Below are positions 5,173 through 7,192 of a stretch of DNA of 7,192 nt, in pieces. Position numbers and translations under genes: made by a program. The stretch comes from an uncultured Asticcacaulis sp. GTDB taxonomy: Bacteria > Pseudomonadota > Alphaproteobacteria > Caulobacterales > Caulobacteraceae. The stretch's first letter is position 1, and each line of letters opens with the position of its first letter. A model generated the notes under the pieces. It worked only from the letters and a program-made list of their open reading frames with translations. It was not told the DNA's origin and did not search any database. The stretch covers positions 1 to 7,192 of the forward strand of contig CAMLLA010000213.1 in assembly GCA_946480525.1 (NCBI GenBank), given 5' to 3'.

Positions 5173-5838
5173 TCAGAAACTGTTGAAAGATGCGGGCGCC
5201 CGCACGTTTTCGGCGTCCAGGGCGCCGGTACGGCGATAGACGAGGGCTTCGGCGACGTGGCGGCGCAGCACGGCGCCCGATTGTTCGAGATCGGCAATCG
5301 TGCGTGCCAGCCGCAGTGTCCGCGTCCAGCCGCGCGCCGTCAGTCCGGCTTGCTCGGCCGCCTTGGTCAGGAGGGCGGTGGCCTGCGGATCCAGCGCACA
5401 GATTTTTTCCAGTCCCGCGCCATAGGCGGTGGCATTCAATGCATTTTCCGGCGGCAATTCCAGCTTGAGAGCGCGTTCGGCCTGCATCTCGCGCGCCGTT
5501 GCCACACGCGCGGCGACCTCGGCGCTGCCTTCGGCAGGCGCAGGCAGGGCCAGATCGACGGCGGTGACCGGCGGCACGTCGATCTGCAGGTCTATGCGAT
5601 CCATCAGCGGTCCCGATACACGGCCCTGATAGTCGCGCAGGCAGCGTGGCGCCTTGCCGCATGCGCCCTTGCCTGAACCGCCGACCGGCACACCATGGCC
5701 ACAGCGGCAAGGATTCATTGCCGCAATCAGTTGTACCCTTGCGGGATAGCGGATGTGGTGATTGGCGCGCGCCACCACGACCTCGGAGGTTTCCAGCGGC
5801 TGGCGAAGGGAGTCGAGGGCCTGGGGCGAGAATTCCGG
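5173..5838 (-). pseudogene. comM: 3' remnant of comM/yifB (Mg-chelatase-like AAA+ ATPase), interrupted
   Basis: The native C-terminal 221 codons remain of a protein of about 500 residues. ComM is a hexameric AAA+ helicase that drives branch migration during natural transformation; YifB is the same family in species not known to be competent. Family marks present are PEFSPQALDSLRQPLE, YPARVQLIAAMNPCRCGHG with its Cys-x-Cys and two later cysteines, GRVSGPLMDRIDLQI (sensor/arginine-finger region) and the C-terminal Mg-chelatase helical domain ending RAPASFNSF. The N-terminal Lon-protease-like domain, Walker A and the Walker B aspartate-glutamate are absent: the match stops exactly at Pro-Glu-Phe of the usual D-E-L-P-E-F. 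An in-frame continuation to a TTG at 5877-5875 adds 13 unrelated residues (MSQAVAWCVCYII) encoded by the inserted DNA. Without the nucleotide-binding residues the product cannot be an active ATPase. The other half of the gene should lie beyond the far end of the insertion. Confidence 0.93.
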
Positions 5839-5840
5839 TA

Positions 5841-5903
5841 TTATGTAGCAAACGCACCAAGCGACAGCTTGGCTCAAAGCCGCACTAAATTTACCCTTCC
5901 GGT
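5841..5903. repeat. Element-end region with degenerate direct repeat and hairpin
   Basis: Two related motifs lie 28 bases apart: CAAACGCACCAA (5849-5860) and CAAAGCCGCACTAAA (5875-5889), sharing CAAA, then CGCAC, then AA. Between them CCAAGC (5857-5862) and GCTTGG (5867-5872) form a perfect 6-bp stem around GACA. Subterminal direct repeats are what transposase-binding sites look like at the ends of Tn7-like and Tn5053-like elements. That reading is inference, because only one end is visible. No convincing promoter for the gene at 5904 was found here. Confidence 0.45.
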
Positions 5904-6335
5904 ATGGACAGACCTAACACCGTAGCCGGATTGATCGCCAAGCGAGACGAGCTCCATAAGCTTCGCAAAACGCTTGAGTCCGAAATCTACAAAGTCACCT
6001 GCGACATCGACCATTTGGACGCCGCCGTAGCCTTGTTCGACCCGGCTCAAACGCCGCGCGCAATTACCCGGTATGTAACCAAGCACAGAGCTAAGAAGGG
6101 CAGTGTCACACCCTTCGTGGTCAAGTTCCTGAGAGAAGCAAAAGCACCCGTGACCAGCCGGGAAATCGCAACGGCATGGCTCGAAGCACGTAACCTCAAA
6201 ACCGATGACGCCACATATGTCATTATTAGGAAGCGGATCGGTGCGTGTCTGACGAAGCTGCGTGTCCAGGGTCTGGCAGTCTGTAACGAGATGATCGGGG
6301 AGTACAAGGGGTGGGTGTTATCGCTTAAGGCTTAA
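5904..6335 (+). CDS. Hypothetical protein: N-terminal coiled coil plus C-terminal winged helix
   Basis: This 143-residue protein is the first gene inside the island, starting about 60 bases from the element end and reading inward. Residues ~6-45 (AGLIAKRDELHKLRKTLESE onward, ending AVALFDP) are a charged amphipathic helix likely to form a coiled coil or dimer. A basic linker (HRAKKG, about 63-68) leads to a helix-turn-helix-like region: a helix around TPFVVKFLREAK, then PVTSREIATAW, then VIIRKRIGACLTKLRVQGLA, closing with a wing-like GEYKGWVL. This fits a small DNA-binding protein. I recognise the layout as a recurrent unnamed family of alphaproteobacterial accessory DNA, from memory, but know no function. 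No Shine-Dalgarno precedes the ATG, so the message may be leaderless or poorly translated. Sampled GC is about 48-67%, between the host genes and the next gene. It could be a regulator of island genes or an accessory factor acting at the element end. Confidence 0.82.
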   Translation: MDRPNTVAGLIAKRDELHKLRKTLESEIYKVTCDIDHLDAAVALFDPAQTPRAITRYVTKHRAKKGSVTPFVVKFLREAKAPVTSREIATAWLEARNLKTDDATYVIIRKRIGACLTKLRVQGLAVCNEMIGEYKGWVLSLKA

Positions 6336-6537: not shown

Positions 6538-7192
6538 TTGACCAACAATATTCACAACGTCGCCATTCACGACTTGAACCGTACAGCAGCAGGATTTGTT
6601 GTGAACCTGGGCAACCCTGATCTAAAAGTTACCAGCACCATGCAGCGAGTGGTCAATGAACTTTATGACCTGTACGGTCGTCGAGCATCCAAATCCTATG
6701 GAAAATTTTCCGCTGATGAGAGCAATTACCCAACTCAGAAGCATTTAGATGATTATGTGAAAAGTAAATTCACGACGTTTGAAACATTTACGTCTGAACT
6801 AATGAAGACACTATCCTTGCAGGCAGGACATAGAAATGCGTCGACTGGTGGTCACGTGTTTTTTGCTCATTTTGAGCGCGACGGGAAGCAGTACATCCTA
6901 GTTGCGATCATTACCGATAAACTTGGTGCTTCGCTTACAAAAACCTATGATCTTCAAGACGCCGAGTACTTGGATATGGAGGGCTTCCGGTTCGCCGGTC
7001 GAATAAATATTACAGGATGGCTCAATAATGAAGAGAGATATATCGGCTTCCTAAAAGGCCGAGGCAACGTTTCGGAATATTTTAAAGAGTTTCTTGGCTG
7101 TGACGACATGGTGCAGGCGAGAAGAGATACGTCTGATCTCGTGTCCGTCCTAAAGAAATTCACTGAGGATGAGAATATGTCTCAGCCAAATA
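6538..7192 (+). CDS. NA37-family nucleoid-associated protein (YejK/NdpA-like), N-terminal part
   Basis: The first 218 codons are present and the frame is open to the window edge; E. coli YejK is about 335 residues, so roughly the last third is missing. Matches to YejK as I remember it include the start MTNNIHNVAIHDL (MSLDINQIALHQL in YejK), NELYDLYGRRASKSYGKFS (40-58), GGHVFFAHF (104-112), QYILVAIITDK (118-128), EYLDMEGFRFAGRINITGW (143-161) and RYIGFLKGRGNVSEYFKEFLG (167-187). Members bind DNA and associate with the nucleoid; their molecular role is poorly known. Translation starts at TTG with a good Shine-Dalgarno. Sampled lines are about 32-47% GC, far below the chromosomal genes, which marks it as foreign. 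Copies of this family on mobile DNA may act as element-borne chromatin or defence-associated proteins, but nothing visible here decides that. No stop or frameshift is seen. Confidence 0.88.
   Translation, partial: MTNNIHNVAIHDLNRTAAGFVVNLGNPDLKVTSTMQRVVNELYDLYGRRASKSYGKFSADESNYPTQKHLDDYVKSKFTTFETFTSELMKTLSLQAGHRNASTGGHVFFAHFERDGKQYILVAIITDKLGASLTKTYDLQDAEYLDMEGFRFAGRINITGWLNNEERYIGFLKGRGNVSEYFKEFLGCDDMVQARRDTSDLVSVLKKFTEDENMSQPN

Follow-up and report, generated by a model that had tools for sequence, protein, structure and literature searches.

An IS1595-family passenger transposon end in the Walker B segment of comM, with a winged-helix protein as probable target selector

Insertion sequences are generally regarded as weakly selective, and the IS1595 family was reportedly the subject of work by Siguier in 2009. 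Within this family, ISApl4 is present in 39 copies, mostly at A/T-rich 8-bp sites (PMC12561309). The gene comM is the target of two other mobile elements, Tn6022 and Tsy, both of which rely on TnsF; this protein requires a 10-bp conserved stretch of the comM Walker B segment, and AjTn6022 placed 96.7% of its insertions into E. coli comM (PMC10293859). AbaR and further elements frequently inactivate comM in A. baumannii, where transformation falls when the gene is lost (PMC11472951).

In this work we analysed a window of 7,192 nucleotides, i.e., the whole stretch of DNA under study, from an uncultured Asticcacaulis sp. (contig CAMLLA010000213.1), in which comM (yifB) had been read from the sequence alone as interrupted inside Walker B by foreign DNA and likened to the AbaR/Tn6022 insertions. 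The interruption by a mobile element was confirmed, with a transposable element at the Walker B codons, other genes beyond them and a drop in G+C from about 0.64 to 0.44 across the next kilobase; the Tn7-like reading was not. The left-side neighbours of comM are purH, an ampG-like transporter gene and a hybrid histidine kinase gene, and the closest comM among the compared loci is that of Asticcacaulis sp. AC466 (L001; 82% over 194 columns). The minus-strand ORF at 5173-5877 matches the YifB/ComM profile from position 304 onward and aligns to the full-length ComM of locus L012 from residue 311 only; profile and ComM comparison place the 3' part of comM, encoding the C-terminal half from the Glu codon of D-E-L-P-E-F, at 5173-5835 on the minus strand. 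The insertion site is named 312 after the Pro of this motif (309-314) in the L012 ComM ORF, counted from the preceding stop. The sequence-only reading had ended the comM match before Pro-Glu-Phe; a stop inside the motif holds, but comM ends before the Glu codon, and the apparent Pro codon, CCG, is where the terminal inverted repeat of the element ends. This repeat (CGGTATTATGTAGCAAACGCACC; 5836-5858, plus strand) shows 0 mismatches to the consensus from other loci, which none of 200 shuffled windows matched at three or fewer mismatches. The expected copy of the 8-bp target duplication, GAATTCTC on the comM strand, is at 5828-5835 (minus strand), the same position as the duplications in 25 two-sided relatives, and a 9-bp repeat, TTCCGGTAT, is found at 5833 and 5897. 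Beyond the repeat lie a gene for a 143-aa coiled-coil and winged-helix protein (5904-6335, plus strand), a candidate target selector on the evidence of homologues, a structure model and tree tests, and a cargo gene for an NA37/YejK-like nucleoid-associated protein (6538-7192, plus strand; PF04245, 9e-42), which is ended by the window edge. PADLOC gave no match for either window protein; the partial NA37 protein has a match to the anti-phage NA37 family NF053868 below the cut-off (67.5 bits against 330). The window holds one junction, one element end and one duplication copy, and we infer the transposase and the far junction from relatives. Very probably it contains one terminus of an IS1595-type transposon that sits in comM at a genuine attachment site.

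Among 80 loci found with the comM fragment, comM was split by an insertion in three (L060, L047 and L072), four loci were ended by contig ends and one (L055) was irregular. In L060, from an alphaproteobacterial MAG, comM is split at the exact point seen in the window by a 3.6 kb insert with genes for an IS1595-family transposase (PF12762, PF12760) and for a protein homologous to the 143-aa ORF. Inverted repeats of the CGGCATTATG... type form the ends of this insert, and GAATTCGC flanks both sides as an 8-bp duplication. The window has the same repeat at the same comM nucleotide and, as in L060, its winged-helix gene adjoins the C-terminal comM half. A similar element occupies comM residue ~249 in L047 (Bradyrhizobium sp. 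BRP22), and both loci encode an ISXO2-like DDE transposase (PF12762; E-values 2.5e-43 in L060 and 1.7e-45 in L047).

Insertions at the 312 site now number 29 including the window. Identical 8-bp copies are present at both junctions in 25 of them (L060, L115-L123, L126-L130, L132, L133, L168, L170, L174, L194, L195, L231, L232 and L233), and the other four are one-sided (window, L110, L125 and L131). The same point of comM is hit repeatedly in alphaproteobacteria, in support of the earlier suggestion of site-specific targeting. The insertion point lies in the Walker B codons LP|EF, between Pro and Glu, and both orientations are used, the winged-helix gene adjoining the N half in 12/29 and the C half in 15/29 (L194 and L233, where this gene is away from the element end, were not scored). 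The duplication reads GA[AG]TT[CT]NN save in L129, which has GAATACAC, and in L174, where it is displaced by 1 bp (GGAATTCC). No two-fold symmetry of the target about the duplication was found: in 20 emptied sites a fraction of 0.265 positions was paired at the centre, comparable to the values at other centres.

Within the order to which Asticcacaulis belongs, that of G001 (the source genome of L001), matches to the 143-aa protein occurred in 38 of 398 genomes and matches to ComM in 360 of the same 398; a 312-site element is present in 21 of these 360 comM-bearing genomes, counting 19 loci found through the 143-aa protein and two (L194 and L195) found through ComM. The 41 match rows for the protein correspond to 30 loci, 19 of them beside a comM half broken at 312 and one beside a half broken at 249, while ten have no comM in view. 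A closer check covered 35 of the 360 genomes (28 with extra comM matches and seven with a short one), and in four more of them (G285, G231, G161 and G154) the comM match stops at the 312 site. G285 and G231 hold IS1595 elements there (L194 and L195), splits that were detected through comM and yet both contain the winged-helix gene; in G161 and G154 the contig ends exactly at the 312 junction. In further samples (there is partial overlap between samples) the protein was matched in 23 of 385 genomes of the class of G004 (adding L168, L170 and L174 at 312, and L172 at 249), in 43 of 367 of the order of G004 (adding L231, L232 and L233 at 312, and L234 and L246 at 249) and in 16 of 398 of the phylum of G001, where nothing further at comM was seen among L183-L191.

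The complete 312-site elements are 1.9 to 8.1 kb long and are bounded by IS1595-family terminal inverted repeats, which begin CGG and could be aligned at both ends in relatives. Transposase matches span at least 240 residues in 24 of the 25 two-sided elements, L174 having a 116-residue fragment, and the winged-helix gene begins 50-120 bp from the element end in most loci. A small DUF6471 protein (PF20075) adjoins the transposase in 31 of 42 loci (L060:7188-7415 and relatives). It was set aside as target selector because it is missing from the comM elements L047, L132, L133 and L174, and a literature search on the name DUF6471 found no paper. A second, weakly similar winged-helix-type protein occurs in three comM elements (L118:6983-7522, L132:12510-12929 and L133:14914-15447). 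The cargo is variable: in 53 chosen proteins from 19 elements, the window included, Pfam gives 17 families, among them SocA/Panacea (three times), SMODS, DprA/SLOG, GIY-YIG, MIP and LMW phosphatase, and PADLOC gives 45 families, the matches listed including a CBASS cyclase with 2TM effector, ShosA/ShosT, PsyrA and PD-T4-10.

The 143-aa protein has 355 homologues. Its AlphaFold model (mean pLDDT 82.7, pTM 0.55) consists of a long helix at residues 7-45 and a winged helix at 68-139; the best solved match found by Foldseek is a Fur winged helix (E 6.3e-3), with none below 0.001. Relatives were found by tblastn neither among the candidates in viral_contigs nor, at E 1e-5, in plasmids.

Elements of this group have other fixed targets as well. 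Both ends and a duplication (one mismatch at most) were called in 51 of 64 larger loci, a number that includes L124, whose end pair (seven mismatches in the inverted repeat, one in the duplication, 11.5 kb apart) was judged not credible and was not counted. When the flanks are joined, the restored ORFs fall into two groups, comM with 30 loci and a GT2 glycosyltransferase gene (PF00535/PF13641) with 10. The GT2 gene is entered at site GTa in both orientations (L236-L241), at site GTb (L167, with one mismatch between its duplication copies, L242 and L243) and at a third site (L177). The 3' end of tRNA-Gln directly precedes the elements of L144/L175 and L189/L249, with matching duplications in L249 and none in L175, and residue ~249 is the second recurrent site within comM.

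What sets the site was addressed by comparing trees of the two proteins. With the 14 elements at unrepeated sites removed and L233 counted as comM Walker B, there remain 41 elements distributed over five named sites; among these the site changes four times on the winged-helix tree, the minimum being four, and 11 times on the transposase tree, all rows of both trees carrying the winged-helix gene by selection. The numbers were 4-5 and 10-12 in 300 bootstrap trees, and none of 300 label shuffles came as low as 4 or 11 on the respective tree. With all 55 elements that have both proteins (L233 here labelled "other") there are 13 changes against 20, the shuffled means being 26.8 and 26.9, and when each unrepeated site is its own state there are 18 (minimum 18) against 25. 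The transposase tree rejects a single clade for GTa (dlnL 185, p 4e-46), GTb (241, 2e-10) and comM249 (214, 1e-8). GTa and GTb each form a clade on the winged-helix tree, with moderate support (91/91 and 89/51, not starred), and a single comM249 clade is not rejected there (15.3, p 0.06). A 36-row test likewise gave p 8e-41 (transposase) and 0.26 (winged-helix) for comM249, and rejected comM312 (Walker B) as a single clade on both trees. Because of the 4 changes against 11, the winged-helix protein is the probable selector of the insertion site on phylogenetic grounds.

The principal alternative accepts an IS1595-type transposon at comM but lets the transposase, alone or with the inverted repeats, pick the site, the winged-helix protein being a regulator or an end-binding protein. 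Site prediction by the transposase does exceed chance (11 changes, where shuffled labels average 14.5), most winged-helix genes lie 50-120 bp from the end, a position suited to a regulator, and elements found away from the named sites have close relatives of the comM-type winged-helix protein. This alternative has to accommodate, however, the excess of changes and the rejected clades for GTa, GTb and comM249, and also the element L165, which keeps a comM-Walker-B-type transposase yet occupies the comM249 site. Its transposase is 73% identical to that of L129, a comM-Walker-B element, and 56% and 58% identical to those of the comM249 elements L172 and L047, whereas its winged-helix protein is only 32% identical to that of L129 and 68% and 65% identical to those of L172 and L047. 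By these identities L165 reads as a clear module exchange, joining a comM312-like transposase to a comM249-like winged-helix protein and site. We consider site choice by the transposase unlikely and retain the winged-helix protein as the preferred selector.

It could also be argued that there is no real targeting, the insertions being old and inherited, or the product of a weak preference for a CCNGARTTY-like motif plus selection for loss of comM. The motif is found once in comM in 15 of 16 hosts and therefore motif and gene are not separable inside comM; moreover, the off-site elements L192 and L124 sit at GGCCGGAATTTCT and GGGAATTC, respectively. Outside comM, however, the density of CCNGARTTY in 1.31 Mb of related DNA is about 95 per Mb, or ~300 per genome, and the recurrent GT2 and tRNA-Gln sites do not have the motif. 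As to inheritance, a tree of 104 ComM C-terminal halves (a quick tree, in which 77 rows are uninterrupted in view, some of them ended by contig ends) needs 15 changes of the 312 label, at least six of them forced by well-supported branches, and the duplications match each host's own comM codons. With both orientations, the mixed placement on the comM tree and the host-specific duplication codons, the 312-site insertions are repeated independent events, and an absence of targeting is very improbable.

Elements outside the named sites weigh against the winged-helix protein as selector, as do the rejection of a single comM Walker-B clade on both trees and the position of the gene away from the element end in L194 and L233. 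Winged-helix proteins of comM312 type, nested in the comM Walker-B clades, occur at other sites in L161, L162, L163, L169, L171, L114 and L124, and off-site members within the comM249 clade are L173 and L235. The host comM matches are nearly full length for L114 (G401), L163 (G036) and L164 (G313), and the host of L124 has an intact-length or single strong comM match. The genomes of L161 (G283) and L162 (G343) do not figure among the 360 in which comM was matched; either incomplete assemblies or a fallback to other sites in the absence of comM would be consistent with this. In L114 only a remnant is left, one-ended and with a shortened transposase, and the winged-helix gene of L124 has a stop. 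Broken winged-helix genes failed as a cause of off-site elements, the gene being intact in L084 and an internal stop occurring only in L094. A pattern scan of viral_contigs returned two contigs, one of them convincing: L192 (IMGVR_UViG_3300020593_000005), where the inverted repeat of these elements and a winged-helix gene start are found at positions 7039-7062, outside comM. Breaks of comM were also seen at about residues 205-215, 275-290 and 340-348, numbered on the 516-aa query and with as much as about 87 kb inserted between the halves, in G120, G335, G142, G250, G235, G377, G329, G353, G317, G318, G067, G043, G116, G150, G156, G200 and G290 and in locus L072 (Methylocystis), the last a phage-like insert with a tyrosine integrase at comM ~281. 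No IS1595 element was present at these other breaks in seven loci from six genomes.

The shared gene and Walker B segment (PMC10293859) would be consistent with a Tn7-like, TniQ/TnsF-dependent island such as AbaR/Tn6022, the comparison drawn in the sequence-only reading. Complete relatives at the same nucleotides instead carry an IS1595-family transposase and make 8-bp duplications, not the 5-bp duplications proposed as a check. TniA/TnsB-, TniB/TnsC- and TniQ/TnsD-like genes, proposed as a check as well, are absent from the 17 Pfam families found in 53 selected cargo proteins (19 elements, with the window among them), and these 53 proteins include no TnsF-like tyrosine-recombinase protein (Pfam, E <= 1e-5), leaving the island scarcely credible. 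An assembly join at about 5836 has a negligible chance: the contigs of G161 and G154 end at the junction point and therefore assemblers do break there, but in the window a perfect inverted repeat and its own winged-helix gene are correctly spaced, and the repeat-comM junction is exactly as in the 25 two-sided relatives.

We think it likely that the IS1595-family passenger transposon whose end lies in the window, in the comM Walker B segment, has its target set by the winged-helix protein. The end-proximal protein would bind target DNA as a coiled-coil dimer and would bring the transposase there; the element can enter in either orientation because both transposon ends are nearly identical. Exchange of the winged-helix gene would change the target between comM Walker B, comM codon ~249, the GT2 gene and tRNA-Gln. 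Because ComM loss lowers transformation it may protect the element from removal, a benefit extrapolated from other species. We also lean towards a broader reading, of a large IS1595-type family in which a single-gene swap of an exchangeable coiled-coil/winged-helix selector of ~145 residues retargets the element, with the comM Walker B segment chosen as attachment site by three unrelated machineries (Tn7-like, tyrosine recombinase and IS1595). If true, this compact system of one transposase, its destination apparently set by one small exchangeable protein, would be a simple natural model of targeted DNA insertion. About ten shared bases of a DNA-uptake gene attract unrelated mobile elements, which is directly relevant to the unsettled question of why natural transformation is a target of such elements; the cargo includes CBASS-, Shos- and Psyr-like defence genes.

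As a target the comM Walker B segment is already published, for Tn6022 and Tsy; use of this site by IS1595-type elements was not found in print, our literature search having returned no report of such elements in comM and no IS1595-type element whose targets are fixed and conserved or to which a selector protein is linked. With the IS1595 family and its passenger genes the present elements have in common the transposase family, the inverted repeats, the 8-bp duplication and the passenger genes; unlike ISApl4 (PMC12561309), they hit fixed sites in conserved genes and carry a site-linked winged-helix gene. Tsy, which uses TnsF, resembles them in entering comM and in also encoding a small HTH protein, but it moves by tyrosine recombination, and those who described it did not detect inverted repeats (PMC10293859). 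Tn6022 resembles them in entering comM at the Walker B segment, and the convergence anticipated from the window sequence alone agrees with that report (PMC10293859). Tn6022 has TnsABC, TniQ and TnsF, whereas the present elements have one IS1595 transposase, and its selector derives from a tyrosine recombinase (TnsF), whereas the candidate selector here is a 143-aa coiled-coil/winged-helix protein.
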